A DNA stretch of 29,859 bases from a virus. The stretch spans positions 1-29,859 of the IMG/VR virus record IMGVR_UViG_3300025120_000338. One strand, 5' to 3'. The translations under genes and the position numbers were made by a program. Below are positions 503-28,729 of the stretch, one piece after another. The stretch's first letter is position 1. Every line of letters begins with the position of its first letter. Under the pieces are notes generated by a model. It had not been told where the DNA came from, ran no database searches, and worked only from the letters and a program-made list of their open reading frames with translations.

Positions 503-511
503 TATAAATAT
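503..511 (-). promoter_or_regulatory. Putative late promoter, ATATTTATA
   Basis: On the coding strand the nonamer ATATTTATA ends 18 nt before the ATG of the P-loop kinase, within the 48-nt gap after the nuclease gene. The same nonamer occurs in four other intergenic gaps, each just before a gene. No -35-like box is visible. Promoter function is inferred from position and recurrence. Confidence 0.5.
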
Positions 512-532
512 ACGAAAAATTAATGAGGAATC

Positions 533-1291
533 CTAGGATTTTTTAACTGATGTTCTATATTTTTCAGATAAAGGTTTAAGAATTGGGTTTTCTAAGTCAA
601 ATAGGGCTCTGACGTTTGTGTAAATTTGTAAGTTTTCATCCATAGAACGGGGTGATTCATATACTTCCCATTTTTTACCTTGTATTTTACCTTCTTTTGG
701 ACCACGTTTAGATGATTTTAACCATAAAATACCTACCCTATCTACTTTTTGTTCATAACATTCTTCAAAACATCTAGCATATATAGCTGATTGGACATCA
801 TATGTGGTTTGTAGGTTGTTTGATGTTTTAATATCAATAACCCATATTTCACCATTAATTTTACAAACTAAATCACAGGTCCCTGCTATATGTAAAGTAT
901 CAGAATATAAAAATACTTCTGTTTCTATTAATTCAGCACCACTAGTTTCCCAAAAATCAACAAAACGTAAAAACATTTTCCAAACATGTAAATCATATTG
1001 TGGAGAACCATCTTTCATTAAATTAATTTCTTTACCTAATAAATACTGTTCACATAAATCATGAGCTAATGTCCCTTCACCTGCTGCTTTTTTAGCAATA
1101 AAATCAGCATTATATCCTACTCTTTTTAACCATTCTTCAAAATGTTTCCCTTTAGGAAAATAAGATAAAACATATGTAACTGAAGGGTATGTTTTTTCTC
1201 CATCTTCATAGAATCTAGAATCGTTAGTAGTAATTTGAGTAAATTCGCGGTTTAATTCCTGCTTAGGAAAATTAGCTTTCCTTAATTTCAT
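533..1291 (-). CDS. PD-(D/E)XK nuclease (Cas4/RecB-type exonuclease)
   Basis: The 252-residue protein has the ordered core of a Cas4/RecB-like PD-(D/E)XK nuclease. His77 lies in GEGTLAHDLC, acidic residues at 123-125 in IETEVF, Asp140 in AGTCDLV and the Asp153-x-Lys155 pair in VIDIKTS. These residues would bind Mg2+ and cleave DNA phosphodiesters. No helicase domain is attached. A role in phage recombination, DNA processing or host DNA degradation is likely. Its start overlaps the primase stop (ATGA, 1288-1291), so it belongs to the same replication transcript and is probably translationally coupled to the primase. The family assignment is firm; the exact role is inferred. Confidence 0.85.
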   Translation of the reverse strand: MKLRKANFPKQELNREFTQITTNDSRFYEDGEKTYPSVTYVLSYFPKGKHFEEWLKRVGYNADFIAKKAAGEGTLAHDLCEQYLLGKEINLMKDGSPQYDLHVWKMFLRFVDFWETSGAELIETEVFLYSDTLHIAGTCDLVCKINGEIWVIDIKTSNNLQTTYDVQSAIYARCFEECYEQKVDRVGILWLKSSKRGPKEGKIQGKKWEVYESPRSMDENLQIYTNVRALFDLENPILKPLSEKYRTSVKKS

Positions 1292-2217
1292 ATAGATAAT
1301 TTTAAGTTAAATAGAGAAGAAAATGTAAATTCTTGTGATTGTTGAATTTTATTTGTAAATAAAGCAAACCCCATATCAGCTGGGTCTTTATCATCTAAGT
1401 CTATTACAAATAGTTTTTTTCCTGCTTCTAGTAATTGTTTTGCTATTTTGTAAGTTGATTTAATAGCGTCTTTGTCTAAAGCTAAATAAACTTTTTTAAC
1501 TTCAGAAGTAACTAATTTTTGCATTAGTTTTTTAGATATATTTTTACCAAATAATGGTATAGCATTTCTTTTTATAGCTATAGCATCAAAAGCACCTTCA
1601 CACAACACAATAGGAATATCCCAATTTATCATATTTTCAAATCCTATAATATTTTTATCTGAGGATGGAGCGTCATATTTTCTTGATGGTTCTTTTTCAA
1701 ATGAACGTGCAACAAAATAATCAAGCTGCCCATCAACATTGTACGTGGGTATAATAATTTTATTAGCATATCTACCTTTTTCACAATATCCTATTTGATA
1801 TTTTAGAACATCCATAGTAGTAACTCCTCTTCTTTTAAGATAAGCTAATGCATGTCTGGCATGTATATCAGATTTAGTAAGATTATATAATGATTTGTAT
1901 TCTGGGGGTAGTTCTACTTTTGTGTTTGAAACTACAATATCATACTTTTCTGTAGTTCCTAATATATCTTTTAATTGTGTTCTTTTGTTAGCAGATACTT
2001 TTAATGCTTTAAATAAACCAAATAAAGTTTTACCTTTTTTATCACATACCCAACAATGCCATAAATTTTCTTTCTTTTTATTTGGAATTAAATTTATCTC
2101 TAATTTTGGGTTTTTATGATGACAAAAAGCACAATGGAAAGCATGATTTCCCCTTGCTGTTGGATTACTCTTACCCAGAACGGATTCCACTAACCCAAGT
2201 AATATTTGGTTTACCAT
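1288..2217 (-). CDS. DNA primase (CHC2 zinc finger plus Toprim), T4 gp61-like
   Basis: The 309-residue protein has an N-terminal zinc-binding site formed by Cys29, Cys32, Cys55 and Cys58, as in CHC2-type primases. A Toprim domain follows, with Glu207 in IVLCEGAFDAIAI and the DxD pair Asp248/Asp250 in YLALDKDA. DLDDKDPADMG, near residues 273-283, is the typical end of the Toprim fold. It should make RNA primers on the lagging strand at the phage replication fork. There is no helicase domain, so it would act with a separate DnaB/gp41-like helicase encoded elsewhere. It is short for a bacterial DnaG but normal for a phage primase. Its last codons overlap the nuclease start by 4 nt. Confidence 0.9.
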   Translation of the reverse strand: MVNQILLGLVESVLGKSNPTARGNHAFHCAFCHHKNPKLEINLIPNKKKENLWHCWVCDKKGKTLFGLFKALKVSANKRTQLKDILGTTEKYDIVVSNTKVELPPEYKSLYNLTKSDIHARHALAYLKRRGVTTMDVLKYQIGYCEKGRYANKIIIPTYNVDGQLDYFVARSFEKEPSRKYDAPSSDKNIIGFENMINWDIPIVLCEGAFDAIAIKRNAIPLFGKNISKKLMQKLVTSEVKKVYLALDKDAIKSTYKIAKQLLEAGKKLFVIDLDDKDPADMGFALFTNKIQQSQEFTFSSLFNLKLSI

Positions 2218-2248
2218 AAAAAAGACTTCAGTTTAGATTTAAGATACG

Positions 2249-2668
2249 TTAAATATTTGGATTAACCAAATCTTTCCTAAAAAACTTACCTAATATGTTA
2301 TCATTTATATATTCTGTATTTTCTAATACATTATTAGAAAATTGGTATTTAGTTTCTAAGTATGTAAGGTGTTTTTTATTAAAAGCAAATTCTAATATTT
2401 CACGTGAAAAATATTCTTGTTTACCTTCTGAAAGTAATTGTTTAATTTTAGTATGTGAACCATAATAGGTTTGCCAATCACTTTCTTTAATTACCTTACG
2501 TTTACGTTTAGTACCCTTTAAAGGTGGTAAAGTACGATTAAAAAATAATACTTTTTTACCTAAATATTTTTCTCTAGTTGGAATGTAAGTAGCTTCATAG
2601 ATGAAACCAAATGTATTTTTGGGCATCTGTTCGATGCTCTCTATAACCTCTCCTTTATATAACCACAT
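2249..2668 (-). CDS. GIY-YIG family endonuclease (Seg/Mob-like)
   Basis: The 139-residue protein begins with a divergent GIY-YIG module: GFIYEA at residues 21-26 pairs with YLG at 35-37. A basic segment (KGTKRKRKV) and the block DWQTYYGS, seen in T4 Seg-type and related phage nucleases, follow. Glu106 in TYLETKYQ is a candidate catalytic glutamate, and the asparagines around 123-125 fit the last GIY-YIG motif. It probably nicks or cuts DNA and may be a free-standing homing endonuclease, because it sits between the structural module and the replication genes. No intron is visible around it. The family call is good; homing activity is inference. Confidence 0.7.
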   Translation of the reverse strand: MWLYKGEVIESIEQMPKNTFGFIYEATYIPTREKYLGKKVLFFNRTLPPLKGTKRKRKVIKESDWQTYYGSHTKIKQLLSEGKQEYFSREILEFAFNKKHLTYLETKYQFSNNVLENTEYINDNILGKFFRKDLVNPNI

Positions 2669-2677
2669 ATTGTGTTT

Positions 2678-2977
2678 TTATTGATCGTATCTAACTACGA
2701 ATGTTGTGTCTGTTACACTAGACATTTGAATTGGTTGGGCAAATTTACCAACCAATAATAATTCATTATTATCATTATAAATCCCTACAGTCGTTACATA
2801 GGGCATAAAATCTGAACCAGTAGCAAAATCACGCATTGATCCTGAAGTGTCTGTACTAATAGTTGGGTTTTGACTTATATTAAATTCACCACTGTCTACA
2901 GTACATACAATTTCATTTTCATAAATTGTATAATTATTTTTAAATAATATTCTATTTGGTGATATTGTTATTGCCAT
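2678..2977 (-). CDS. Small virion protein related to the C-terminus of the 348-residue protein
   Basis: I do not recognise a named family. The 99-residue protein is β-rich. Its C-terminal half (VTTVGIYNDNNELLLVGKFAQPI) closely matches the C-terminus of the protein at 8349-9395 (ITSVGLYNDANELLSVAKLSKPL). Both are followed by a short charged strand (FVVRYDQ and ALVRVKLDF). The two genes flank the fibre genes, so this is probably a truncated paralogue used in the same baseplate or fibre assembly. It follows the 584-residue fibre gene after a 9-nt gap, and the leader is A/T-rich with no Shine-Dalgarno sequence. Confidence 0.7.
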   Translation of the reverse strand: MAITISPNRILFKNNYTIYENEIVCTVDSGEFNISQNPTISTDTSGSMRDFATGSDFMPYVTTVGIYNDNNELLLVGKFAQPIQMSSVTDTTFVVRYDQ

Positions 2978-2986
2978 AATTTATTT

Positions 2987-4741
2987 TTAACAAGGATCTG
3001 CTTCGTCAATTATAATACCTGTTTGTATTCTTACAAAAGTACCAGTTGTTGTTTTAAACCATCTTCCAGTACTTCCTCCTAGTGGAACATATTTATATTT
3101 TCCTCCTTTATAATTAAACCCATAATATATAATACCTGAGGGGCCTAATGAATAAGTTTCCAATAAGTTTCCACATATTAATTTTTGTAAACTTCTAGGA
3201 TTAATATTTTCTGGAGATTGTAAAGGGTAAACTTCATTATTAAATCCTATACTACCATATTGTACATCAGTAAGCTCTGTTCCACAAGTTTCAAAAGCTA
3301 TTATACGGCCCGAGCTTAAAATTACATTTCTTCCTCCTTTTTCTTGAGTACCATTAAATAGAGGATATCTTCCAGAAAGACGTGAACTAATTAATCTATT
3401 ATCTTTAAATTTAACATTTTCAGAACCTGAAGAGGTTCTTGTTCTCTTACAAGCCGATTCTTGATCTGGGAATGCTCCTCTTAAAGTATATATATCAAGA
3501 GAAGGTAATATACACCCTCCTCTATTTTGTATATATCCATCTTGATTAACTATTAAATAAACAGTAGGGCTAGTAAGAATGTAATTTACAGCAGAAGGAA
3601 ATACAGCTTTAGTATCATCTAAAGCATCTTCTCTAGAATTGTAAAGATATCCATTTGTACCAAAATAAGTTCTTTCTTTATAATCTACACCTGTAATAGC
3701 ACAAACTGAATCTTGTGTGTCTCGAGGTGATGATCCAAATATTGTTTTTACATAAGTAGTAGGGGCTGGAGGTGCTCCTGGGCCTGGATCCGGTTCAGGA
3801 TCTGGGGTTGGAGTAGGTGGTGGTGGTGACTTGGTTAATAAAGTAAAAGTTGTATTAGTAGTAGTTCCATTTTTAGGTAATACTAATTGTCTAATTTTAA
3901 AAGTTAAACCTTTATCAGGAGTAAATGCCGAACTATCATCTGTATTATTATTAGGGTTATTAAATCCACCTTCAGTAGTATATGTTTCTTTTTCTATACC
4001 CGTAGTTGTTCTTTGAACAAAATTTCCATATGTACTTTTTGATCCTCCTTTTATATTAATAGATAAATCTTCAGAACGACCATCTGAAGTCCAAGCACCG
4101 GGGTCTGGAGATGTGCTATAATCATAAGTTATTGATGCTCCTGCTTCTATTCTATAATTAACATTTCCTCTAGTACTACGAATTTCAACTTCCATGGCTG
4201 ATGAAAGGTTGTTTTTAAATATTACATTTACGCTACCTGCTGATAGTGGAGGGGGTAATAAATCATAAGTAAATGATAATAAATCAGAATTAGGTGAGGG
4301 AGTTGGTCCACTACAAGATGTAAATGCTCTAAAAAATACAGTTCCAGTTATAAATGAAGATGTAACTGAAAATGATGTACCTATTGACTGTGAGAGTATT
4401 TCCGTTCTTCCTGATGCAAAATTTATATCATCACTAATTGAAGCTGTTATTCTAGTAGGAGTGTTTGTTGAAGATTGGGTAACATAACTTACATCAAATC
4501 TTCCTCTACGAGAACCTGTATTTAAACTGGTTAAAAGAGGTACAAGACAATTTTCAAATCCTGGTTCACAGTCAATTGGATCATATGATCTATTAAAAAA
4601 ATCATCTCCATTTAATGAAGCACTAAAAGGGGATACACTTAAATTTACATCAAAAGATGAAGTTACTACACTACCTGAATTAACTCCAGAAGTGAAGTAC
4701 TGTCTTACTGTAGGCGATATTTGGTAACCTGTATTAGCCAT
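2987..4741 (-). CDS. Tail fibre/adhesin-like structural protein with cysteine-bracketed repeats
   Basis: The 584-residue protein has three visible parts. Residues 1 to about 300 are Ser/Thr-rich β-structure, with segments resembling Ig-like domains (RGRFDVSYVTQSS, ASISDDINFASGRTEI). A Pro/Asp linker (PPPPTPTPDPEPDPGPG) lies near residues 304-328. The C-terminal region holds three diverged repeats, each bounded by cysteines: 347-410, 431-486 and 523-584. The first two share the lead-in DTQDSVC/PDQESAC, and each contains a strand pair around an nG-x-ly/sGrI turn. The last residue of the protein is the final cysteine. It is probably a distal fibre or receptor-binding protein. Its start overlaps the end of the SprB-like fibre gene by 8 nt. 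The structural role comes from context; the repeats are seen directly. Confidence 0.7.
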   Translation of the reverse strand: MANTGYQISPTVRQYFTSGVNSGSVVTSSFDVNLSVSPFSASLNGDDFFNRSYDPIDCEPGFENCLVPLLTSLNTGSRRGRFDVSYVTQSSTNTPTRITASISDDINFASGRTEILSQSIGTSFSVTSSFITGTVFFRAFTSCSGPTPSPNSDLLSFTYDLLPPPLSAGSVNVIFKNNLSSAMEVEIRSTRGNVNYRIEAGASITYDYSTSPDPGAWTSDGRSEDLSINIKGGSKSTYGNFVQRTTTGIEKETYTTEGGFNNPNNNTDDSSAFTPDKGLTFKIRQLVLPKNGTTTNTTFTLLTKSPPPPTPTPDPEPDPGPGAPPAPTTYVKTIFGSSPRDTQDSVCAITGVDYKERTYFGTNGYLYNSREDALDDTKAVFPSAVNYILTSPTVYLIVNQDGYIQNRGGCILPSLDIYTLRGAFPDQESACKRTRTSSGSENVKFKDNRLISSRLSGRYPLFNGTQEKGGRNVILSSGRIIAFETCGTELTDVQYGSIGFNNEVYPLQSPENINPRSLQKLICGNLLETYSLGPSGIIYYGFNYKGGKYKYVPLGGSTGRWFKTTTGTFVRIQTGIIIDEADPC

Positions 4742-8345: not shown

Positions 8346-8348
8346 TCA

Positions 8349-9395: not shown

Positions 9396-9399
9396 AATA

Positions 9400-10059
9400 T
9401 TACGATGTTACTTTTGTTATGTTAAGTGGGATTGTTAATCTTGCTCCTGAATCTCTACCTGTTACTGTTATGATAGTATTCAGTGTATTTGATGTTCCAA
9501 ACAATGTATTAACTGTAGTTGCAGTTAAATTAATTGTTGTTCCAATTACTGTTCTAGATACATTTGTACCTATAGTAGTTGTAGTATTTAAGGTAGCTGC
9601 TGCTGCATTATTTACACCTACTCCTTCAAAATTAGATAATGTTCTTGAATCTCCAACAGTAGCTGTATAACCACTTGATTCAAATGTTGAATCTGTACCT
9701 AAATAATTAAGTGTTTGTGGTGTAATTGATAATGAAGCTCCTTGTTTTAAAGTAATTGTTGTATATCCTAGTTCTAATACAGGTAATTTAGCTGTACCTC
9801 TAGGTAATGTTAACAATTTATATTTCATTGTTTGAGTTTCATCAGGAAAAGCTTCAAGGATAGGCATGTTTTCAATTGCCTCTCCGTAAAATGCTGAGCC
9901 TGATGGGTGGTTTGGATTATAAAGTGTATAATCAATTTCATCATCTGCTAAAGAGAATTGTGTAATTCTAAATGATCCATCATTTCGTGCTAATAATTCA
10001 CGACCTTTTTTTGTTAGGATGGCATCAACAGTAACTGTAGTATTATTTAAATATCCCAT
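9400..10059 (-). CDS. Virion structural protein, baseplate/fibre associated
   Basis: The 219-residue protein starts MGYLNNTTVTVDAILTKKGRELLARNDG, a well-defined N-terminal region. FRITQFSLADDEIDYTLYNP follows, so the first half looks like a compact conserved domain. The second half (about residues 115-219) is almost entirely Thr/Asn/Ser-rich β-sequence (TATTVNTLFGTSNTLNT), like a repetitive Ig-like or fibre extension. The start is supported by the upstream ATATTTATA motif 17 nt away and by the A-rich leader. It is the first gene of the fibre block. Assignment as a structural protein rests on context and overall resemblance; no T4 equivalent is claimed. Confidence 0.65.
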   Translation of the reverse strand: MGYLNNTTVTVDAILTKKGRELLARNDGSFRITQFSLADDEIDYTLYNPNHPSGSAFYGEAIENMPILEAFPDETQTMKYKLLTLPRGTAKLPVLELGYTTITLKQGASLSITPQTLNYLGTDSTFESSGYTATVGDSRTLSNFEGVGVNNAAAATLNTTTTIGTNVSRTVIGTTINLTATTVNTLFGTSNTLNTIITVTGRDSGARLTIPLNITKVTS

Positions 10060-10076
10060 GTTTTATTCTTGTTGTA

Positions 10077-10085
10077 TATAAATAT
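10077..10085 (-). promoter_or_regulatory. Putative late promoter, ATATTTATA
   Basis: The coding-strand nonamer ATATTTATA lies in the 42-nt gap between the 1788- and 219-residue genes, 17 nt before the downstream ATG. It would start the fibre block (10059 leftwards). The leader after it is A-rich and has no Shine-Dalgarno sequence. Confidence 0.55.
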
Positions 10086-10101
10086 AGTATTTTTTAGTTT
10101 T

Positions 10102-16873: not shown

Positions 16874-16877
16874 TTTT

Positions 16878-18755
16878 TTAGTTTGTTACTACTCTTCCCT
16901 GGATATCAGTGTCAGGGTATTTTAATTCAAATATACTTGGGTCTAAAGATGGATATAATATTTCATTTATAGTAGCACCCTTAATATCATATGCTAGTTT
17001 TGAATATCCTTCATTTTCACCTACTTTATTTACAAATTCTAATGATTTAACTGTTTGAACTCCTTCTACACTATCAATTACATTTTTAGCGTTATTAATT
17101 AGAATTGGTTGATTAATTTGCCATTTATCTATATCAAAATAATCTTTTAATTGTATAATAATATTATTTAATACTGTTTGTGCATTATAATTTGGTAATA
17201 GAATTACATCAAAATTAATTCCAATATTAATAATAAAAGCATCTTTTATTTCAACAGCATCAGTTAACATTCTATACTCACTTAAATAAGTAATTAAATT
17301 TTGTTTTAAAGCAGGATCAGCAACTATTAAATCATTTATGTTATTTTGTGATAAAATACATAAGGATAATAAATTGTTATCATATCTTCCTTCAGTTGTT
17401 TGTCTGTTAGGTGAAATAGAAGAATCTTGAGTTACATATACTTTAGCTACTTTACCAAATTTTGAAGGTAAAGATAAAGATCTAATAGCATAATCATCTT
17501 TAGTTACAGTTCTTAATTGTGTTGGATATTGAGCTATTGATTTTCTTCTTATATCTTCATTTGTATCTCCATCTCCTCCTCCTGTAGCAGGATTAGTGTT
17601 TGTAAATGCTAAAGAATCTCTAACTGTAGATTGTAAAGTAGAATCTAAATTAGCTCCAAAAAATGTTACTGTACCAGAAGATAAAATTGTTAATGATTGG
17701 GCTGAAACATTAGATGTTGCCCCTCCTCCTACAAGATATTGTATTGTTAAAGTAGTATTTGCTGGTGATAACCCATAAGTTTTTGTATATAAAAAGTTAG
17801 AAGGATCATAAGCTGTTAATAATTTATCAGTACCATAAGGTAATCCTAAACCTACATTATCAGAATTAGGGGTAATAGTTTCATCCGGGCCTGAGGATAT
17901 TCCAGGGCCAAATTGCAATTCTACTTTATTATTTGATTTAAAACGTTTTATAAATCTTTTTGGGACTTTTAGTAGTTTTAAAAGATAAGGTGTTGTAGCA
18001 TTATATTGATATAAATCGGGGTCATTAGATGCTATATTAGTTTGTGGATCAAATATAGTTTCTTGTGCTAAATACGGGACTTCATACCATCTACCCCCAT
18101 TTGTATCTGTACATTTTATAATTTCAATTATATTTGTATCTTCAATTTGAATTGTAGAAAATCTTTCAGGAGTTGTAAAAGTAAATTGAGCTGTTTTTAA
18201 AGTACCAGCTGTAGCTTTAGCAGATTTTTTTAATAAATAAAAATCAGGATTATTAGTTCCATCTAGTGAGTAAACAGATATATCAGTAGGATCTGCACTA
18301 CCAGATATGGTAAAATCAACTTTATCTTCTATATAGAAAAAAACATCTGTACTATTAGATGATTGTATCTGTGCACCTTCAGCTAAAATCATAGCATAAT
18401 TGTAATCAGGTCTATATAATCCCCCTTCTATTGTCGAAGGTATAATTTGAAATATTTCTACATTAGTTGTTCCAGCATTTGTTACTTGTGGAAAGTAACC
18501 ATGTGTATAAGCTAAAGCTAATAAACTATCTCTTTGCTTAGCAAATTCCAAATAGTTTTCTTGAACCTGACTATCACCATAATAAGCTAAAACATCCCCT
18601 ACATAGGAAGCCATTTCAATTAACATTAACCCCGCAGATGTATCTGAGAAGTCATTATATGTGTTAGGGTAATATATTTGAGCAAATTCAAGCAGTTTTT
18701 GTTTGAACCCGTCAAAATCTTTATTTAAATATTGTATTTCTTTAGACTCCGCCAT
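16878..18755 (-). CDS. gp6: Baseplate wedge protein, gp6/J-like
   Basis: The 625-residue protein matches the T4 gp6 / baseplate J family. The N-terminus reads FDGFKQKLLEFAQIYYPN, then TSAGLMLIEMASYVGDVLAYYGD and LALAYTHGYFP, the conserved wedge dimerisation region. Around 413-445, TVTKDDYAIRSLSLPSKFGKVAKVYV is the typical J/gp6 core signature. The C-terminal third alternates strands and helices, as in the gp6 ring-forming domain. The protein should form the inner ring of the contractile-tail baseplate with gp25. Its length is close to that of T4 gp6 (about 660). The first 14 nt overlap the gp25-like gene, which supports both calls. Confidence 0.9.
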   Translation of the reverse strand: MAESKEIQYLNKDFDGFKQKLLEFAQIYYPNTYNDFSDTSAGLMLIEMASYVGDVLAYYGDSQVQENYLEFAKQRDSLLALAYTHGYFPQVTNAGTTNVEIFQIIPSTIEGGLYRPDYNYAMILAEGAQIQSSNSTDVFFYIEDKVDFTISGSADPTDISVYSLDGTNNPDFYLLKKSAKATAGTLKTAQFTFTTPERFSTIQIEDTNIIEIIKCTDTNGGRWYEVPYLAQETIFDPQTNIASNDPDLYQYNATTPYLLKLLKVPKRFIKRFKSNNKVELQFGPGISSGPDETITPNSDNVGLGLPYGTDKLLTAYDPSNFLYTKTYGLSPANTTLTIQYLVGGGATSNVSAQSLTILSSGTVTFFGANLDSTLQSTVRDSLAFTNTNPATGGGDGDTNEDIRRKSIAQYPTQLRTVTKDDYAIRSLSLPSKFGKVAKVYVTQDSSISPNRQTTEGRYDNNLLSLCILSQNNINDLIVADPALKQNLITYLSEYRMLTDAVEIKDAFIINIGINFDVILLPNYNAQTVLNNIIIQLKDYFDIDKWQINQPILINNAKNVIDSVEGVQTVKSLEFVNKVGENEGYSKLAYDIKGATINEILYPSLDPSIFELKYPDTDIQGRVVTN

Positions 18756-19164
18756 TAGTATTAAAGTTTATTTGAAGTTCATCTTCTATATTTGTATTAA
18801 TCACAGAGTAATTAAGATTTATAGTGACTCTGAAGTTATTAGGATCTAATTCCACTGTTAAAGTATTTATTTGAACTTGTGGAAAAAATGTTTCAACCCC
18901 ACCATAAATTAAATTTTCTATTTGATCCGTTATATTTTCTGTTATAGGTTCAAAGAGTAAATCTCGTACACCTGATCCAAAATTAGGATTCATTATTCTT
19001 TCCCTTTTACCTGTTAAGATAAAATTTAGCAAGTTAGATTTTATAGCATCTTTAGTAGTAAAGGTAGTATTAATGCCCGTAGGACCATTAAAGGGTAAAG
19101 CAATCCCTACACCTGTACTAGGTTTAAGATCTAAAATATCAACATTACGTACTATATAAGCCAT
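18742..19164 (-). CDS. gp25: Baseplate wedge protein gp25 (GPW/gp25 family)
   Basis: The 140-residue protein has the full gp25/GPW core. LPFNGPTGINTTFTTKDAIKSNLLNFILTG is followed by KRERIMNPNFGSGVRDLLFEPI at about 53-74, with the conserved Glu-Arg and Asn-Phe-Gly residues, and a strand-rich C-terminus (VELDPNNFRVTINLNYSV). This is the most conserved piece of contractile-tail baseplates; it clamps gp6 and nucleates the sheath. Length is typical (T4 gp25 has 132). Its ATG shares one base with the stop of the 160-residue gene (TAATG), and its end overlaps the gp6-like gene by 14 nt. Confidence 0.93.
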   Translation of the reverse strand: MAYIVRNVDILDLKPSTGVGIALPFNGPTGINTTFTTKDAIKSNLLNFILTGKRERIMNPNFGSGVRDLLFEPITENITDQIENLIYGGVETFFPQVQINTLTVELDPNNFRVTINLNYSVINTNIEDELQINFNTNGGV

Positions 19165-19646
19165 TATATTTTACCTGCATTTTTCATTTTACCCATTAAA
19201 CCTGAAAAATCTGGTACAGCATCAATTGATACTTGATTTATATCAGATGTTTTTTGGTTTGATATCATTGCATCAACAGAATCTACTACTTTAGTAGGTG
19301 TCCCAGGCATACCTCCTTGAAATCCTACAGCATCTTGTGATGACATCCCACCATTAAGGTTTCTCCAACCCCCTTCATTATGTGTTTGATTTAAAACATC
19401 TGCTAAGGCACCAACTCCTTCAAATAAAGGTTTTGAAAATGCTGTAGTTTCATGTTTAGGTGTTTCTGTTTTAGGTTTTTCCTCAATTAATTCAGATAAT
19501 GAGTTGTTATTTTTCTTTTGTTCGACAACTGGCTTCTGAACTACTTTGTTTTCAGTGATAGGAGTTTGCATAATTAAAGATAATTCTTCTTTAATCACGT
19601 CTCTTACTTCCTCTCTAATAACTTTTCTAAAAGCTTCTAATTTCAT
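19164..19646 (-). CDS. Small baseplate-operon protein with charged N-terminal helix
   Basis: I do not recognise a named family for this 160-residue protein. The N-terminus is a highly charged amphipathic helix (MKLEAFRKVIREEVRDVIKEEL). A Lys/Glu/Thr-rich, probably disordered stretch follows to about 85. A Gly-rich segment comes next (EGGWRNLNGGMSSQDAVGFQGG), and the end is short (VPDFSGLMGKMKNAGKI). It precedes gp25 with a TAATG overlap and is the first gene after the palindromic promoter-like site at 19650. A role in baseplate assembly, for example as an adaptor, is inferred from position only. Confidence 0.65.
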   Translation of the reverse strand: MKLEAFRKVIREEVRDVIKEELSLIMQTPITENKVVQKPVVEQKKNNNSLSELIEEKPKTETPKHETTAFSKPLFEGVGALADVLNQTHNEGGWRNLNGGMSSQDAVGFQGGMPGTPTKVVDSVDAMISNQKTSDINQVSIDAVPDFSGLMGKMKNAGKI

Positions 19647-19649
19647 GAC

Positions 19650-19663
19650 TATAAATATTTATA
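19650..19663 (-). promoter_or_regulatory. Putative late promoter within a 14-bp perfect palindrome
   Basis: TATAAATATTTATA is a perfect palindrome that contains ATATTTATA on the coding strand. It ends 3 nt before the ATG of the 160-residue gene and lies in the 19-nt gap after the 1007-residue gene. It would start the wedge operon. With so little leader, the transcript would be leaderless or nearly so if the motif acts as a -10 box. Confidence 0.5.
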
Positions 19664-19665
19664 TA

Positions 19666-22689: not shown

Positions 22690-23390
22690 TATTGTGTTTT
22701 AACTAGTTGAGAAAGAGTTCCAGGTATTCTTTTTGCTAAAGCTCTTGTTGCTTTTTGAAGTGATACTCCTGCTCTTTGAGTAAATTTTATTGGTACATCA
22801 TTTACATCACTGGCTAATTTAAGGTTTTCACATACTTCTTGATCTAATATTTTTAAAAATTCAACAAAAATAATAGCAAGTGAATCTCCTTTAATTAATG
22901 GATGTTTTGCTTCTAACCCTAACATTATTTCCGATGAGTTTATAATTGTTTTTCCTCCACTGTTTATATTAAAAGTACCATTTGTAGAAATACCTACTGC
23001 TTTTTTACCAATTATAAACGTAGAATCTTGTTTAGAATTAATTAATACTCTATCTGAATCTATAATGATTTGATTTCCTCTATACGGAAATTCAGGTTTA
23101 TAGGTAGTTGAAGGTTCTTTTAATGTATTTTCTTTAGTAAGAGTTTCTTCACTAGCATCAGGTTTACCTTCTACTTGAGGGTTTGAAGCAGCTATATCTT
23201 TATTTGCTTGAACTTCAACTTCAACTTCTGGTATATCAATTCCATCCTTTTGGAGTGCCTCCATTTTCTTTTTAGCCCTCTTTCTTTTTCTACTTCCAAA
23301 TAATGCATAAGTGACTCCTTCAGGGATACCAAAGAATTGTTGATATAAATCAACTACATTACTCCATATGTCTATAATAAATTCAATCAT
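22689..23390 (-). CDS. Baseplate spike-like protein (β-helix segment)
   Basis: The 233-residue protein begins with a hydrophobic helix (MIEFIIDIWSNVVDLYQQFF) and a strongly basic patch (GSRKRKRAKKKM). An acidic, Thr/Glu-rich linker runs to about residue 100. The next 60 residues are short alternating strands (QIIIDSDRVLINSKQDSTFI, AVGISTNGTFNIN) that end in EIMLG-x8-IKGDSL. This matches the end of gpV/VgrG/gp5-type spike domains, where an x-I-x-LG strand precedes a Pro-Leu-x-x-Gly-Asp turn. The C-terminus is helical and basic. It is joined to both neighbours by TAATG overlaps. I read it as part of the central spike or its attachment. Confidence 0.65.
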   Translation of the reverse strand: MIEFIIDIWSNVVDLYQQFFGIPEGVTYALFGSRKRKRAKKKMEALQKDGIDIPEVEVEVQANKDIAASNPQVEGKPDASEETLTKENTLKEPSTTYKPEFPYRGNQIIIDSDRVLINSKQDSTFIIGKKAVGISTNGTFNINSGGKTIINSSEIMLGLEAKHPLIKGDSLAIIFVEFLKILDQEVCENLKLASDVNDVPIKFTQRAGVSLQKATRALAKRIPGTLSQLVKTQ

Positions 23391-24541
23391 TAGGCACCAG
23401 ATTCATTTCCATCATTATCTCTATAAGTAAATTCTCCTCTATTAGTTGGAGTAGAAGGTTGTTGAACACGGCCAGGTGTTCTAACAGAAGAAGGTTTTGG
23501 TTTTTTAAAAAATTCTTGAGGGAAATTTTGTTCTTCTTGTTCTGCTTTAGCTACTATTTCATTATTTAAATCTGGTTCTTGATTTATAGTATCATAGAAA
23601 TTTTCTATATCGTCTAATTCTTTAGATGATAAAGTAGCGTCTTCAATAGGAATTTCTTGTAATAGTTTAGTTGTGTTAGTTACAGGTGTAGAATCTACCC
23701 CAAATGAAGCAAAGTTATTTGAACCTAAATTTACAGGAATTAATTGACCATTAGTCATATAAATTGAAGACTTATCGTTTTGGACATCTTCATATGTAGG
23801 GATCCAAGTATTAAAAGGTAAATCTGTTTGTGATTGTCCATTTCTTATAATTGTAATTGGATTTCCATTTCTACCCTCAGTACTCCAGGGACTTTCTACA
23901 TTTTTACTTCCAGAGGGTTGTTTTGCTGTAGAACCAAATCTAATTGAATTACCAAATCTACCTTCTATAATAATATCTCCTTCATTAGGAAGTAAATTTC
24001 TTATATTTGATTTTTCTTCAAAAGTATTCCCAGGTATGGGTTCAGTTAAACTACCACTTTCATTATTTGCAATACCATCAAGTACACTATTATTATCTAC
24101 AACATTAGTATCTTTTGATATTCCTGAAGCTGGTGAAGGGAGTATATTTAAATGGTTACTATTCCAAGGTGATATAGGATTAAAATAATAAAATTGAACT
24201 TCATCAGAGTTTCCTTCTAGTATAGATTCTTTAGAAGGACCTATTGTAATGTATACTATTTCTCCTATTAAAGGAAGTTTTTTAAAATTAATATCAAATG
24301 GATAAGCAATATTTCCTTGGGGGTATTTTTTAGGTATAGATCCTTTATTTAATTGTTCAAACCTAATAGCTCCCAATCCAGCCCAACCACCGGCAACTTG
24401 AAATAAAGATTCCCCATTAGAATCTGTTGATAAAGATATATCTATAACTCTAACAGGAATTAACCCATTAGGGTTTAAAGATTCTTTAGCTTTAGAGGGT
24501 CTATTTAGAGAATTTACTAATGTAGGAAACTGCTCAGCCAT
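23390..24541 (-). CDS. gp5/gpV-like OB-fold baseplate spike protein, no lysozyme domain
   Basis: The 383-residue protein starts MAEQFPTLVNSLNRPS. OB-fold-like strands follow at about 28-110 (GLIPVRVIDISLS, AIRFEQLNKG, LPLIGEIVYITIG). At about 187-240, LPNEGDIIIEGRFGNSIRFGST and NGNPITIIRNGQ form a block I recall from spike/hub proteins of marine T4-like phages. SSIYMTNGQLIPV resembles another spike strand. T4 gp5 carries a lysozyme between OB fold and β-helix; I see no such insert here. The C-terminus is Pro/Gln-rich and probably disordered. It pairs with the β-helix-like gene next to it (TAATG overlap), so the spike may be built from two chains. Confidence 0.7.
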   Translation of the reverse strand: MAEQFPTLVNSLNRPSKAKESLNPNGLIPVRVIDISLSTDSNGESLFQVAGGWAGLGAIRFEQLNKGSIPKKYPQGNIAYPFDINFKKLPLIGEIVYITIGPSKESILEGNSDEVQFYYFNPISPWNSNHLNILPSPASGISKDTNVVDNNSVLDGIANNESGSLTEPIPGNTFEEKSNIRNLLPNEGDIIIEGRFGNSIRFGSTAKQPSGSKNVESPWSTEGRNGNPITIIRNGQSQTDLPFNTWIPTYEDVQNDKSSIYMTNGQLIPVNLGSNNFASFGVDSTPVTNTTKLLQEIPIEDATLSSKELDDIENFYDTINQEPDLNNEIVAKAEQEEQNFPQEFFKKPKPSSVRTPGRVQQPSTPTNRGEFTYRDNDGNESGA

Positions 24542-24915
24542 TAAACTGCTTTTTCTATATTTTCCTCTAATTGAGGTATTTCAACTTTACTATCTAATTC
24601 TTGAAGAGAACTAAAGAGCATTTCTTTATCTTCATCTGTGAGAAGTTCTTCTGAATCAGCTGCTTTGCTATTCATTGCTCTTTGAACAATCCCGGCCATT
24701 TTAATTAAGGCATCATCATTTTTAATAGCTAATTCCATATATTCTTTAATTAAGGGAACAATCATTGTTGCTTCACCTGGTGAAGTAATTAATGGTTTTA
24801 ATCCTTCTATTAAAGAACGTAATTGAACTTCTTTATCTTTTTGGTTTGTGTGTATTTCCTTTAAAAGATCGGCAAAGTTTTTCTTTCCGAATAATTTTAT
24901 GCTTGAAAAATCCAT
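24541..24915 (-). CDS. Small all-helical protein heading the spike operon
   Basis: I do not recognise this 124-residue protein. It is predicted to be helical throughout (FADLLKEIHTNQKDKEVQLR, TMIVPLIKEYMELAIKNDDALIKMAGIVQ), with an acidic C-terminus (LLTDEDKEMLFSSLQELD). There is no signal peptide or cysteine. It is the first gene after the promoter-like motif at 24931 and is coupled to the OB-fold spike gene by a TAATG overlap. A chaperone or small hub component is possible by position only. Confidence 0.65.
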   Translation of the reverse strand: MDFSSIKLFGKKNFADLLKEIHTNQKDKEVQLRSLIEGLKPLITSPGEATMIVPLIKEYMELAIKNDDALIKMAGIVQRAMNSKAADSEELLTDEDKEMLFSSLQELDSKVEIPQLEENIEKAV

Positions 24916-24930
24916 AAGCTACGCTTTGGA

Positions 24931-24939
24931 TATAAATAT
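24931..24939 (-). promoter_or_regulatory. Putative late promoter, ATATTTATA
   Basis: The coding-strand nonamer ATATTTATA lies in the 40-nt gap between the sigma-factor and helical-protein genes, 15 nt before the ATG at 24915. It would drive the spike/hub block. The leader has no AGGAGG-like sequence. Confidence 0.55.
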
Positions 24940-24955
24940 GGGTATATATAAGGGT

Positions 24956-25762
24956 TTAGAACTTCATACTAACATACCCATGTTCATTATATTGACCTAC
25001 TAACCTAGTATATATTTTCCTCATTTTTTTAATTATTTTAGTAATTTGAGGAGTAGATTGATCAGTCATTTCACGTATGTAGATATATATTGCTTTTTTA
25101 TTAAACAATTCTATATTTTCTCTTTTACGGAATAATTCTAATATAGCATCGGCGGTTTTAGCATCTTCAGATTTAGGAAAATGATCAAATAAGTATAATT
25201 CAAAATATCGAAGTAAATATTCTATAAATTCTGTAGCTCTATCTACGGGTTGATCTAATCCTGTATTATTAACTAAATCTATTACTATAGATTGGTCTTT
25301 ATCAACTGCATCTACATCTGTTTTTTGTTTTAATTTCTTATAATTATTATTATTATAAAGTATTAAATATCTTTTTGCTATAGTACCAAAATAAGAAAAT
25401 GCTTTACCTTTTTCTTGTTTATATAAATGGAGTTTTTCAAGTAAAAAGGTTATTACTTCGTGTTGAAGGTGTTGAATTGTGTCTACTTCTGTATAATAAA
25501 ATTTAAAAGTATGAATAATATTTTCTGTTAACTTAAAAAAAGCATATTTTATACGTGCATTATATATAGCATTACGTTTATCTTGATCCGTTTCATTAAC
25601 GTATTCAATAATAGCTTCTTCAGTATCAGCAGTAAAGTATTGATTTTTGGTCTTTGGTTTTCTTCTTCTTAAAGTACCTTTTTTGGTATATTGAGGTCCT
25701 TCATCTTTTTGAGGTACAGTTAGAATTTTTCCCTCAAGAGACTCGTCTAGTGGTGCAATCAT
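24956..25762 (-). CDS. gp55: RNA polymerase sigma factor, T4 gp55-like (late transcription)
   Basis: The 268-residue protein resembles phage late sigma factors. DTIQHLQHEVITFLLEKLHL, KGKAFSYFGTIAKRYLI and NNNNYKKLKQK fit sigma region 2, where the SYFGTIAKRYL block helps bind and melt the -10 element. The C-terminus, IREMTDQSTPQITKIIKKMRKIY, looks like a short helix-turn-helix (region 4 remnant). The first 60 residues are basic (KKGTLRRRKPKTKNQYF). It should direct host RNA polymerase to the late promoters of this phage. It overlaps the upstream membrane-protein gene by 4 nt (ATGA) and is followed directly by the spike operon with its own promoter-like motif. Confidence 0.85.
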   Translation of the reverse strand: MIAPLDESLEGKILTVPQKDEGPQYTKKGTLRRRKPKTKNQYFTADTEEAIIEYVNETDQDKRNAIYNARIKYAFFKLTENIIHTFKFYYTEVDTIQHLQHEVITFLLEKLHLYKQEKGKAFSYFGTIAKRYLILYNNNNYKKLKQKTDVDAVDKDQSIVIDLVNNTGLDQPVDRATEFIEYLLRYFELYLFDHFPKSEDAKTADAILELFRKRENIELFNKKAIYIYIREMTDQSTPQITKIIKKMRKIYTRLVGQYNEHGYVSMKF

Positions 25763-26043
25763 TTATTAAGGTTATACTCGTTGATTAGTTCTTGAATCTC
25801 CTTAATTCCTTTAAAAAACCACCCTATTTCATCATCTGATTCGAATATTTGTTTTGAATCAATTTCTTTGATTTTACGATTAGAATCGGACATTATCTTA
25901 GACAATTGATCAATATATCCATCTCTTTTATTAATTGCATCCTCTAATTTCTCATTTTTTCTCATCAAATTCCAAATAATATAGAAAATGACCCCGAAAA
26001 CAAGGATACCAACATTAATTAAGATAATAGTAAGTGTAGACAT
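25759..26043 (-). CDS. Small membrane protein with cytoplasmic coiled coil
   Basis: The 94-residue protein has one N-terminal membrane helix (LTIILINVGILVFGVIFYIIW, about 4-24). A positive residue pair (RK) follows it, so the tail is probably cytoplasmic. The rest is a charged coiled coil (EKLEDAINKRDGYIDQLSKI) ending in FFKGIKEIQELINEYN. I know no named family. It starts directly after the HD-gene stop (TAAATG) and overlaps the sigma gene (ATGA), so the three are probably translated together. A role at the host membrane is possible. Confidence 0.65.
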   Translation of the reverse strand: MSTLTIILINVGILVFGVIFYIIWNLMRKNEKLEDAINKRDGYIDQLSKIMSDSNRKIKEIDSKQIFESDDEIGWFFKGIKEIQELINEYNLNK

Positions 26044-26796
26044 TTAGAGATTTTTTACTAAATTCATTAAATTATCATTATCAGAACCTATTTTATCTAA
26101 GTTAGAGTTAACTCGATCTTGTTTTGTTTGTTTTGGTTTCGGTTGATTACCAAAAGTATGCAACCATTCTCTCTCAAATTCAATTCTTGCAGCCATAAGG
26201 TCAGCTTGATGTAAAATAAAGGGAAGTGAAGTACGTGGTTTAGTTTCGGGCATATAGCCTTTAAGATATGGTTGATTTGCATCATCATATAAACCATCAT
26301 GGGTTTTGATTGCTATGAATTCATTAGTAGTTAATTGAATTCCTGCTTGTTGTAATAAGAATAAACCTCTGTCTGGGACAGTCATGTATTCATTTGATGT
26401 ATTAAAGGTGTACATCTCACCTAAATTTTTCTTTCTCCATTCATCCTTAGATGGAACAACAGAAACATGTTCTAAGGATCCTATTTTACCTAAATCATGG
26501 TTTAAAGCGGAGACAAATAACTCTTCATCTGTGTACGTATCTTTTGTTCCCATTTCCTGCCATACAGCATTTATTTTAAATGCAGCAGTAATTACACGTA
26601 TAACGTGCTCAACATAACCCCCGGGAAAACAATTGTGATACGCCTTCTTATGAGAAGCTGGGAGTAGGGCAATACGTTCATCCAATTTATTGTAAAAATC
26701 AAGGAACTGATCTTTACGATCCCCCGTAACGTATTTGTTAATGCCACTAAGAAGTACCTCGTAGTTCTCCTTTATTTGCTCCGCTGTTAAAACCAT
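26044..26796 (-). CDS. HD-domain phosphohydrolase
   Basis: The 250-residue protein carries an HD metal site: His64 in GGYVEHVIRV, the His100-Asp101 pair in SALNHDLGKIG and a later acidic residue near IKTHDGLYDD or LHQADLMAARIEFE. This matches HD hydrolases that act on nucleotides or nucleotide second messengers. Likely substrates are (d)NTPs/dNMPs, (p)ppGpp-like alarmones or cyclic nucleotides; the sequence does not decide between them. The C-terminal part is basic and helical. It sits between a 57-residue coiled-coil gene and a small membrane protein with no gaps (TAAATG on both sides). Confidence 0.8.
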   Translation of the reverse strand: MVLTAEQIKENYEVLLSGINKYVTGDRKDQFLDFYNKLDERIALLPASHKKAYHNCFPGGYVEHVIRVITAAFKINAVWQEMGTKDTYTDEELFVSALNHDLGKIGSLEHVSVVPSKDEWRKKNLGEMYTFNTSNEYMTVPDRGLFLLQQAGIQLTTNEFIAIKTHDGLYDDANQPYLKGYMPETKPRTSLPFILHQADLMAARIEFEREWLHTFGNQPKPKQTKQDRVNSNLDKIGSDNDNLMNLVKNL

Positions 26797-26970
26797 TTAG
26801 TCTTGTGTTTCGTTATTTAGATAAGTTTGTGCTTGACTTATCTCTTCTTTAATGTTATCAATTGTTTGATTTACTTGAACGTGTTCACCTCTATGTGAAT
26901 TACTCTTTACAACATTAAGTTGATTTTCAATTTTTTCTAATTTGCGTTGTAATAATTCTTTATATCTCAT
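26797..26970 (-). CDS. 57-residue coiled-coil peptide
   Basis: I translated this by hand: ATG at 26970 and TAA at 26797. The product begins MRYKELLQRKLEKIENQLNV and ends SQAQTYLNNETQD. It is almost entirely a charged coiled coil with no membrane segment. It overlaps the glutaredoxin end by 11 nt in another frame and abuts the HD-domain gene (TAAATG). Its frame is open across the whole gap, which supports it as a real gene. The function is unknown; it may be a partner of the HD protein. Confidence 0.65.
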   Translation of the reverse strand: MRYKELLQRKLEKIENQLNVVKSNSHRGEHVQVNQTIDNIKEEISQAQTYLNNETQD

Positions 26971-27292
26971 AATAAAATTCTAAGAGGATTTCTAATGCTT
27001 CCTCGATTGTGGTAAATATACGATTGCCTCCCATGTTCTCCAAATTACTATCGGGAAGAATATAAATTTCTTCTCCTGGCCTTTTAGTAAAATTTATTAC
27101 TGGGTAGCCTTCGTTTTTATAATTTCTTTCAATCCAATCCCCCATGTATTCATTTTCATCAACATCAATTTCTCTGAAGGGAATATTAAGATGGTTGAGG
27201 GCTTTTTTTAAAGTATTGCAATAAAGACAGTGTGTAAGTGTGTATAACGTTATGTTCCCTACCCCTTTTTTTTCTATTTCTTTAACCCCCAT
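26960..27292 (-). CDS. Glutaredoxin
   Basis: The 110-residue protein has a thioredoxin-fold glutaredoxin core: strand NITLYTL, the redox pair Cys22-x-x-Cys25 (CLYC), helix NTLKKALNHL, strand IPFREIDVD and the cis-proline at GYPVINF (Pro64). The last part (MGGNRIFTTIEEALEILLEF) forms the C-terminal helix that follows a GG motif. It would reduce disulfides, for example in ribonucleotide reductase, as T4 NrdC does. No reductase gene is in the window. It starts 2 nt after an ATATTTATA motif, so the mRNA may be leaderless. A GTG in-frame downstream (…GVGNITLY) is a possible alternative start. Confidence 0.88.
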   Translation of the reverse strand: MGVKEIEKKGVGNITLYTLTHCLYCNTLKKALNHLNIPFREIDVDENEYMGDWIERNYKNEGYPVINFTKRPGEEIYILPDSNLENMGGNRIFTTIEEALEILLEFYYEI

Positions 27293-27294
27293 TT

Positions 27295-27303
27295 TATAAA
27301 TAT
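27295..27303 (-). promoter_or_regulatory. Putative late promoter, ATATTTATA
   Basis: The nonamer ATATTTATA lies 2 nt before the glutaredoxin ATG, in the 54-nt gap after the 96-residue gene. It would drive glutaredoxin through the sigma factor. The very short spacing puts it in the short class with the 19650 site. Confidence 0.45.
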
Positions 27304-27346
27304 TAATTTTTTAAATCTATCGTATCTCAAAGGTAATGGAAATATT

Positions 27347-27637
27347 TCAATTCTCCAAATGTTCTTTAAGAAGCTTTTCCCAAGATTTAATTTTCTTTAT
27401 TCCTTCTTCATGTTTGCTTTCTTCAAACATAGGTAACAAATCATTTTGCAAAGTTTCAAGTACAGGTTCAATTTCCTTTTTATCTACTGTTAGGAAAAGA
27501 GGTTCACCTTTATTTTCTAATTTAAACAAATATTCAAATTGTTCTAAAGAAGTATTTAAAAGTGAAGTTTTTAATTGTGTAAACTCACCTAAAGAACCTT
27601 CTAGTGCATCTATTGTATTTTTTAATATATCATCCAT
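27347..27637 (-). CDS. Small helical protein of unknown function
   Basis: This 96-residue protein is not one I recognise. It is acidic and helical (MDDILKNTIDALEGSLGEFT, KIKSWEKLLKEHLEN) with a short central strand (EPLFLTV). There are no cysteines or membrane segments. It begins one base after the stop of the 44-residue gene at 27639, and the motif-bearing gap before glutaredoxin follows it. Read-through of the two small genes as a pair is likely. Confidence 0.6.
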   Translation of the reverse strand: MDDILKNTIDALEGSLGEFTQLKTSLLNTSLEQFEYLFKLENKGEPLFLTVDKKEIEPVLETLQNDLLPMFEESKHEEGIKKIKSWEKLLKEHLEN

Positions 27638-27638
27638 T

Positions 27639-27773
27639 TTAATAAACTTTATTTTGAAGATCTAATCTCAGCTCTTCTATTTTTTCTTTTGCAGAGCGTA
27701 TGTGACCATCTTCCATTAATTCTTGAATTTGACCTACTTGTAGGTATAATCTATATAACTTATTTTTATCCAT
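27639..27773 (-). CDS. 44-residue helical peptide
   Basis: I translated this by hand: ATG at 27773 and TAA at 27639. The product reads MDKNKLYRLYLQVGQIQELM and then SAKEKIEELRLDLQNKVY, a charged amphipathic helix or coiled coil. The next gene starts one base after its stop. The tight packing and the open frame across the gap suggest a true small gene. The function is unknown. Confidence 0.55.
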   Translation of the reverse strand: MDKNKLYRLYLQVGQIQELMEDGHIRSAKEKIEELRLDLQNKVY

Positions 27774-27806
27774 ATTTTTTAAATTTGACTCAGCGGACTC
27801 TTCTTA

Positions 27807-27835
27807 AAAAACTAACCGATAATGAGTATACCCAA
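27807..27835 (-). promoter_or_regulatory. Weak candidate Bacteroidota-type promoter
   Basis: On the coding strand a TTG at 27835-27833 is followed 18 nt later by TAGTTTTT (27814-27807), one base off the Bacteroidota -7 consensus TAnnTTTG. It lies in the 75-nt gap before the 44-residue gene. The low-complexity A/T context makes chance likely. Confidence 0.2.
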
Positions 27836-27848
27836 TAATACATATATA

Positions 27849-28493
27849 CTATTTTGGGCGTAATTCAATTAAAATCGAGTCTTTTACACGGTAAAGACCA
27901 TCGTATGATACATCCATGTATATTTTAAGAGTCTCATTGTTAATTACCGCGGATTTAGGAATTGGCCCAACCATTTGTTGAGTAAAAAGAGCCAATTCGG
28001 TGGGGTAATATCCATAGCGAGCTGCAGGCGGTACAAAGCGTACACTAAAAGGGTACACATAATAAACAGGATAATTGCTAAAAACGCCGTTGCTATAACT
28101 CCAGTACTTATCAGTAGAGAAGACAGCGCGTATATTAGACTCGCCATTATATTTCTGATTTTCGGCCATATCGGTTGATTCGGCAAAAACTTTTGTGTAA
28201 GTGTAGTTTTCAAGTGTATCTAAATAAATTGTTTGTTGATAATTCTGGGTACCATCGATTGTAACAAATGCTTGACCCGTGCCACGCAAGGGTTCTTCAT
28301 ATACATACCCATCTAACGGATATCTTTGATCCCATACATAAACTTCTTTAGTGCAAGAAGTAAATAATAGTATTATAATTAATACTACAAGTCCAACTCC
28401 GGACCAAGCCGCTATTGTGTATGATGATTTTGTGCTTTCCCTATCGTAATATGGGTGTTCTTCCATTTTATATAACCTTTTTAATTCGGTCAT
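27849..28493 (-). CDS. Possible lipoprotein or single-pass membrane protein
   Basis: The frame is open from a TTG at 28523, but I prefer ATG at 28493 (214 residues, MTELKRLYKMEEHPYY) because a TATATTTG box overlaps the TTG; ATG at 28466 is also possible. A hydrophobic helix (IAAWSGVGLVVLIIILLFTSC) ends at a cysteine in a LLFTSC context, like many Bacteroidota lipoproteins, although about 45 residues precede the Cys, longer than usual. The rest is extracytoplasmic-looking β-structure rich in Tyr (YPVYYVYPFSVRFVPPAARY) with no recognised domain. If exported, it may alter the host envelope, for example to block superinfection. That role is inference. Confidence 0.65.
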   Translation of the reverse strand: MTELKRLYKMEEHPYYDRESTKSSYTIAAWSGVGLVVLIIILLFTSCTKEVYVWDQRYPLDGYVYEEPLRGTGQAFVTIDGTQNYQQTIYLDTLENYTYTKVFAESTDMAENQKYNGESNIRAVFSTDKYWSYSNGVFSNYPVYYVYPFSVRFVPPAARYGYYPTELALFTQQMVGPIPKSAVINNETLKIYMDVSYDGLYRVKDSILIELRPK

Positions 28494-28520
28494 CAATGTA
28501 CGAACAATATCTTGGGGAGC

Positions 28521-28528
28521 CAAATATA
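28521..28528 (-). promoter_or_regulatory. Bacteroidota-type -7 box TATATTTG
   Basis: The coding strand reads TATATTTG, an exact match to the Bacteroidota -7 consensus TAnnTTTG, 27 nt before the ATG at 28493. The region about 20 nt further upstream is A/T-rich but has no clear TTTG -33 element. It suggests an early promoter read by the host sigma factor. Confidence 0.4.
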
Positions 28529-28562
28529 CTTATATATACTTGTCGATATAAAAAATTTTTTT

Positions 28563-28587
28563 AAAAGAAAGGATTAAGATCTTAATC
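28563..28587 (-). terminator. Weak intrinsic terminator
   Basis: On the coding strand GATTAA-GATC-TTAATC (28587-28572, a perfect 16-bp palindrome) forms a 6-bp stem with a GATC loop and is followed by CTTTCTTTT (28571-28563). It overlaps the stop of the 44-residue basic gene. The stem is AT-rich and thus weak, but its position between two genes with separate promoter-like boxes fits a terminator. Confidence 0.45.
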
Positions 28588-28716
28588 TTGTTTCCCAAAA
28601 GAGGTAAAAGCGATTTTGAATAATGAAAGTATACGCTTCCATAACGGTAGCGATTCATTTTCTAAATCTTTTTTAGCGTCTCTTCTTTTTGCCTGCTTGG
28701 TCTTAAATATATTCAT
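28582..28716 (-). CDS. 44-residue basic amphipathic peptide
   Basis: I translated this by hand: ATG at 28716 and TAA at 28582. The product begins MNIFKTKQAKRRDAKKDLEN and ends with an amphipathic helix (PLWKRILSLFKIAFTSFGKQD). The very basic start and the Trp/Phe-rich helix suggest membrane association or binding to a host protein or nucleic acid. A near copy of the promoter motif (ATATTTATT) sits 4 nt upstream and a terminator-like palindrome at its end, so it may be a self-contained unit. No family is recognised. Confidence 0.6.
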   Translation of the reverse strand: MNIFKTKQAKRRDAKKDLENESLPLWKRILSLFKIAFTSFGKQD

Positions 28717-28720
28717 TGTA

Positions 28721-28729
28721 AATAAATAT
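28721..28729 (-). promoter_or_regulatory. Near-match late promoter, ATATTTATT
   Basis: The coding strand reads ATATTTATT, one base off the nonamer, 4 nt before the ATG at 28716. It abuts the end of the oxygenase-like gene. Less certain than the five exact copies. Confidence 0.35.

Follow-up and report, generated by a model that had tools for sequence, protein, structure and literature searches.

A directional intergenic nonamer as the probable late-promoter core in the T4-like relatives of Flavobacterium phage immuto

The nonamer and its genetic context

The window, that is, the whole stretch of DNA analysed (29,859 nt of an IMG/VR virus record), codes for T4-like baseplate wedge proteins gp6 and gp25, plus a primase and an exonuclease, and its minus strand carries essentially all of the genes. 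A megablast search with the whole window against phages gave no match; among cultured phages, its gp6-like protein is most closely related to that of the Flavobacterium immuto phages (46% identity), the host of immuto being Flavobacterium sp. LMO8. For comparison we took 80 IMG/VR relatives, and the named genomes include G001, a 166 kb relative, and immuto, a cultured Flavobacterium phage; for uncultured records, gene calling simply took the longest ORF with an ATG start.

The preliminary description of this DNA listed five copies of the nonamer ATATTTATA on the minus (coding) strand and one near copy, ATATTTATT, all directly before start codons. All six sites and their placement were confirmed, and two further copies were found on the opposite strand. 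The relevant features are:

503..511, minus strand: ATATTTATA within TTTCGTATATTTATATG, 18 nt before the ATG (484) of a P-loop ORF; without an A at +4
3089..3097, plus strand: opposite-strand, in-gene copy
10077..10085, minus strand: putative late-promoter box before ORF 9400-10059, 17 nt to the next ATG; inferred start A10073
19650..19658, minus strand: putative late-promoter box, 3 nt before ATG 19646 of ORF 19164-19646, which shares the baseplate operon of gp25 and gp6; A19646 may be a leaderless start
19655..19663, plus strand: opposite-strand copy, overlapping the 19650 box to form a 14-bp palindrome, TATAAATATTTATA
24931..24939, minus strand: putative late-promoter box before ORF 24541-24915, directly after the sigma-like gene, 15 nt to the next ATG; inferred start A24927
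24956..25762, minus strand: sigma-70-like protein by remote homology, 268 aa, candidate reader of the late box
27295..27303, minus strand: ATATTTATA, 2 nt before the ATG of the glutaredoxin-like ORF 26960-27292
27328..27359, minus strand: predicted host-type promoter of the sigma-gene operon, TTTGG at 27359-27355 and TACCTTTG at 27335-27328
28721..28729, minus strand: near copy ATATTTATT, 4 nt before the ATG of the 44-aa ORF 28582-28716; A at +4

The five coding-strand nonamers all lie within the 40 nt before a start, a space that makes up 4.0% of the window. The initial impression that no copy occurs inside genes holds for the coding strand, but the opposite strand has one at 3089-3097, which is probably due to chance. 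The number of copies in the window is not significant by itself (7 on both strands versus 4.03 +/- 2.05 expected, with 12 of 100 shuffles reaching 7), as would be the case for a chance A/T-rich word in A/T-rich gaps; what stands out is their position, and the significance of ATATTTATA comes from its counts in relatives.

Orientation, position and conservation in relatives

In whole records, the ratio of coding-strand to opposite-strand copies was 27:1 in G001, 16:1 in immuto, 16:2 in G002 and 10:1 in G003, and 188:11 in 10 further records, taken together, in each of which there is a gene for a sigma-like relative. The corresponding ratios were 6:7 in T4, 15:16 in Tenacibaculum phage pT24, 10:5 in Cellulophaga phage phi14:2 and 4:1 in Flavobacterium phage FCL-2, which are only rough controls because T4 and possibly others have genes on both strands. 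Position is equally biased: 21 of the 27 coding-strand copies of G001 fall in 4.8% of the sequence, and the nonamer is the most upstream-enriched 9-mer of all in this genome, where it also comes out on top in a set of 126 words with equal composition (strand p=2e-7, position p=1e-11). Across seven records, 116 upstream copies were in sense and 7 antisense with respect to the following gene, and 20 of 136 copies in relatives were situated outside the upstream 40 nt, some of them in-gene.

We then compared orthologous gaps, counted as distinct sequences that are not phylogenetically independent. An exact 19650 box was present in 46 of 46 distinct gaps, its distance of 3 nt to the ATG never varying, and an exact 10077 box in 16 of 17; at the 24931 site, 124 distinct gaps contained ATATTTATA in 76 cases and ATATTTATT in 43. 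The nonamer was almost never present at 18 control gene starts. Interpretation of the 10077, 19650 and 24931 copies as late boxes is therefore well supported by sequence comparison, these being retained in divergent gaps. This conservation and the whole-record statistics of strand and position make chance a scarcely credible explanation of the motif; it is refuted for these three sites, and may still account for the copy at 27295, which has an exact counterpart in no more than 10 of 30 distinct orthologous gaps, is restricted to close relatives, and which we assign to the class with hesitation. In 7 of 7 relatives the 503 copy is retained within its TTTCGTATATTTATATG context and again without the downstream A; the context resembles the host-type class TTCGTATATTT (see below), and this site is a hybrid of a host-type promoter and a late box. 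The near copy at 28721 is identical to the variant found in 43 orthologs of the 24931 site and is plausibly also a late box; no homolog of its 44-aa ORF was found in the loci examined. The six sites cannot thus be treated as a single class, as was done at first, with 503 being a hybrid and 27295 limited to close relatives.

The box can be summarized as ATATTTAT[A/T], in which positions 2-8 hardly tolerate change (7 records), position 1 is occasionally C and position 9 may be T. An A occurs 4 nt past the box in 97 of the 124 sites lying at least 5 nt from the ATG and is likely to be the transcript start; with this A as start, the box would span about -12 to -4, near the flavobacterial -7 box, which spans -12 to -5 (PMC9723704). 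For a box situated 3 nt from the ATG, as at 19650, this suggests a leaderless mRNA beginning with AUG; only a minority of flavobacterial mRNAs lack a leader, 5.5% in F. psychrophilum (PMC9723704). The absence of a -35 element, already noticed in the window, extends to G001, where TTG is found at -33 in 4 of 28 late boxes (background 0.11), and immuto shows a weak excess (6 of 19, background 0.08).

The palindromic overlap at the 19650 site is also present in G001, G003, G009, G010 and G012, and would suit a site for some other DNA-binding protein (a repressor, or a DNA-structural or packaging protein) placed in gaps. The palindrome is site-specific and not general. The box is strictly oriented with its gene and the downstream A keeps a constant distance, both of which argue against such a function, which we consider very improbable.

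The nonamer marks the heads of operons, as had been proposed: where the upstream gap is at least 12 nt, it precedes 137 of 543 genes, versus 5 of 597 where there is no such gap (p=1e-41). Several ATATTTATA copies directly follow intrinsic terminators; terminators were not significantly more frequent ahead of late boxes (15/137 vs 24/344, p=0.19). The proximity of the box to start codons, and the use by flavobacteria of A/T-rich starts without a Shine-Dalgarno sequence (PMC6847099), could instead indicate an RNA-level signal, either a translation enhancer or an mRNA processing site, and no promoter. This is rather improbable, since the box is nearly missing before operon-internal genes, its distance to the ATG varies in relatives from 3 to about 30 nt, and late and host-type boxes are mutually exclusive by gene class; the copies right behind terminators point the same way, in spite of the non-significant excess.

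Two promoter classes and a candidate sigma factor

A second class of motif, TATATTTA[A/G] preceded at a distance of about 23 nt by TTG (in immuto, 18 of 18), is found before other genes. The late class was defined as the genes in the virion blocks of immuto, at 78.9-100.8 and 114-160.4 kb, together with homologs of these genes. In the five genomes compared, genes of this class were preceded by 55 late boxes and no host-type box, and all 53 host-type boxes were before genes outside it. Late boxes were enriched before virion-module genes in the five genomes (p=0.0006 to 0.014); that of the immuto tail sheath lies at 146992 of MW353175. Late boxes were also present before 72 genes outside the virion class, mostly unclassified.

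The host-type class approaches the Bacteroidota sigma-A consensus (-33 TTTG and -7 TAnnTTTG), and the predicted promoter of the sigma-gene operon conforms to it; the TTTGG...TACCTTTG layout of the latter is shared by 19 of 30 distinct orthologous gaps, with a spacing of 23-24 nt, and immuto has several host-type boxes upstream of its sigma-like gene. The core TATATTT/AATATTT is common to the late box, the host -7 box and the phage host-type class, and the 503 copy is a hybrid, both of which favour reading of ATATTTATA by host sigma-A as a -7 variant, perhaps with a phage activator or a modification of the RNA polymerase. However, the late box does not fit the host consensus, because it lacks the -33 TTG and the final G of the -7 box; additionally, it has an obligatory TA after TATTTA, and the two types of box are split by gene class. 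We consider this explanation unlikely, if less so than the other alternatives.

The candidate for reading the late box is the product of 24956-25762, whose counterparts in annotated phages are labelled only as hypothetical proteins; at least 590 IMG/VR stretches encode a relative of it. The lead came through PHROG 234 (phrog_234, the PHROG of T4 gp55), which had a single weak match in immuto (E=0.008), immuto26A_153, the ortholog of this protein, and in immuto only. An hhalign comparison of the family with the gp55 family aligned region 2 only (E=6.5e-4, probability 28%); Sigma70_r2 was matched by 4 of 28 family members (best E=0.0011) and a phage sigma PHROG by four (best E=0.0064). No match was obtained for Pfam Sigma70_r2 over whole records or in a search with PHROG 12791, and neither the immuto protein nor the family profile drew a sigma match in sequence searches of the PDB. 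An AlphaFold (AF2) model of the protein (pLDDT 74.6, pTM 0.45) shows a predicted C-terminal helix-turn-helix (HTH), unlike gp55, and its Foldseek list from the PDB consists mostly of sigma factors, none significant (E>=0.3). The best viral Foldseek match is a 264-aa protein (E=8e-5), which we guess to be the family member of Rhodothermus phage RM378, likewise of 264 aa. These results indicate that the protein is likely sigma-like, by remote homology. Its 94-aa neighbour (25759-26043) was considered as a gp33-like co-activator and dropped, since it looks like a membrane protein.

The direction, position and conservation of the box, its preference for virion genes and the existence of two promoter classes are consistent with ATATTTATA being the late-promoter core of an immuto-related, T4-like clade, probably read by the sigma-like protein, and we consider this the probable explanation. 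ATATTTATA would be a -10-like core element, acting toward the following genes without a -33 element, and would be recognized by the phage sigma-like protein together with host core RNA polymerase; transcription would start at the A four bases past it, giving a short leader, or none where the box is 3 nt from the ATG. Since the sigma-like operon begins with a host-type promoter, the protein would be made before the late genes, in a cascade leading from host sigma to late sigma to the late genes under ATATTTATA. The evidence is entirely sequence-based, and the pairing of protein and box, the start site and the timing are proposed on that basis; the cascade predicts late 5' ends about 4 nt past ATATTTATA and early 5' ends past TATATTTAGG.

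More tentatively, Bacteroidota T4-like phages might possess a late system of their own, in which an abundant sigma family without annotation, with a C-terminal HTH, reads a TATTTA box modelled on the host -7 element, clamp-independent in immuto and producing mRNAs without leaders from a conserved part of the late genes. For this phage group, which is common in IMG/VR and has a cultured member, immuto, the analysis yields a map of the operons and a candidate for the master regulator. It also supplies a compact candidate pair of promoter and sigma factor for use in Bacteroidota, and a natural setting in which to test leaderless translation in these bacteria.

Comparison with T4 and other known systems

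In T4, late transcription depends on the box TATAAATA, the sigma factor gp55, the co-activator gp33 and the sliding clamp gp45 (PMC2988020). The arrangement described here would, by analogy, function like T4 late transcription, as a variant with its own box sequence: in both there is an A/T box at the -10 position before virion genes, without a -35 element, with a single dominant sequence, a short A/T-rich stretch downstream and a diverged phage protein that here is sigma-like by remote homology, with a distant match to gp55 over region 2 only. The differences lie in the box, which departs from the T4 definition TATAAATA at two central bases, and in the sigma-like protein, which is longer than gp55 and has a predicted C-terminal HTH. 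A T4-family clamp was found in G013, G014 and G016 and a loader in G001, G013, G014 and G016; neither was detected in immuto.

The late-promoter interpretation offered in the preliminary description is retained insofar as the box is directional, intergenic, devoid of a -35 element and favours virion genes, but not in its view of the box as the T4 late promoter in the opposite strand sense, given the 116 sense versus 7 antisense copies of ATATTTATA before genes. Coding-strand TATAAATA is not enriched, and there are 28 sense upstream copies of it versus 130 of TATTTATA. The two sequences differ in two central bases, which in TATTTATA match the host -7 box TAnnTTTG, and the reverse-complement relation to the T4 box is incidental because of these two central AA-to-TT changes. 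The results suggest a testable rule by which the T4-like late box is built from the -10 element of the host (TATAAT to TATAAATA; TAnnTTTG to ATATTTATA).

Lineage- or host-specific variants of the late box occur in other T4-like phages, including Aeromonas phage Aeh1 (PMC2984593, PMC2988020), and T4-like cyanophages keep the late box NATAAATA (PMC2984593); the box described here resembles these in being such a variant, but their core is TAAATA and here it is TTTATA. Overlapping early and late promoters were proposed for RB49 and S-PM2 (PMC2984593), a likeness to hybrid sites such as 503. Our searches of the open-access literature on the motif, on flavophage late promoters and on RM378 promoters turned up no report of the motif, which is weak evidence of absence, and a paper on Baltic Sea Flavobacterium phages mentions neither promoters nor immuto.

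Relatives of the sigma-like protein are also present in phages where the box differs or may differ. Two distant phages that encode such a relative, Mel-JY01 and LR756508, show only a weak bias of the nonamer (17:6 and 7:3, respectively); this counts against the main interpretation, and their box may be a different one. ORF 17032-17826 of RM378, a 264-aa frame, belongs to the sigma-like family (E=8.8e-7), and the first 50 kb of this phage contain 12 copies of TTATTTAA, nine of them in sense and at most 40 nt from a start, versus 0.3 expected, which counts in favour of it. RM378 differs in having TTATTTAA instead of ATATTTATA and genes on both strands, and it shares with the window and its relatives a member of the sigma-like family and a sense-oriented box before genes with the common core TATTTA.

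Probable promoters of the window

Two features on the (-) strand involve, respectively, a host-type (early-type) promoter, with TTG near -33 and a box resembling the Bacteroidota -7 element TAnnTTTG, and a variant of the probable late-box nonamer:
27328-27359 (-): conserved host-type promoter TTTGG...TACCTTTG, heading the glutaredoxin-HD-sigma operon
28582-28716 (-): 44-aa ORF, preceded by the near copy ATATTTATT

The nonamer at 27295-27303 (-) lies ca. 30 nt downstream of the former. No homolog of the 44-aa ORF was found among the fetched loci. At 28521-28545 (-), TATATATAAGTATATTTGG contains an exact TAnnTTTG (28528-28521) adjoining an early-type TATATATAAGTAT, with no -33 element visible at this site.

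Promoter-like repeats in relatives

Many small genes of Flavobacterium phage immuto (locus L089, 60.9-76.3 kb) are preceded by a long, near-identical early promoter, GTTG...TTC-TATATTTAGGTATCAATAATTAAAA, TTG being present in 18/18 copies. Record G002 (locus L103, 40-50 kb) has many small genes with a repeated upstream TTCGTATATTTAAGTAT; here a -33 TTG accompanies fewer than half of the copies, and in several it is replaced by purine-rich AAGG.

Phages with other recorded hosts

Microcystis elabens is the recorded host of phage Mel-JY01 (PP395634, locus L321). Its gp6-like and sigma-like proteins have their nearest relatives in Bacteroidota phages, and the host assignment may need checking. The sigma-like family also includes hypothetical protein p020 of Rhodothermus phage RM378 (locus L326, 17032-17826). 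Gaps of this locus contain TTATTTAA upstream of genes, in sense, on both strands, and this motif is likely the RM378 late box.
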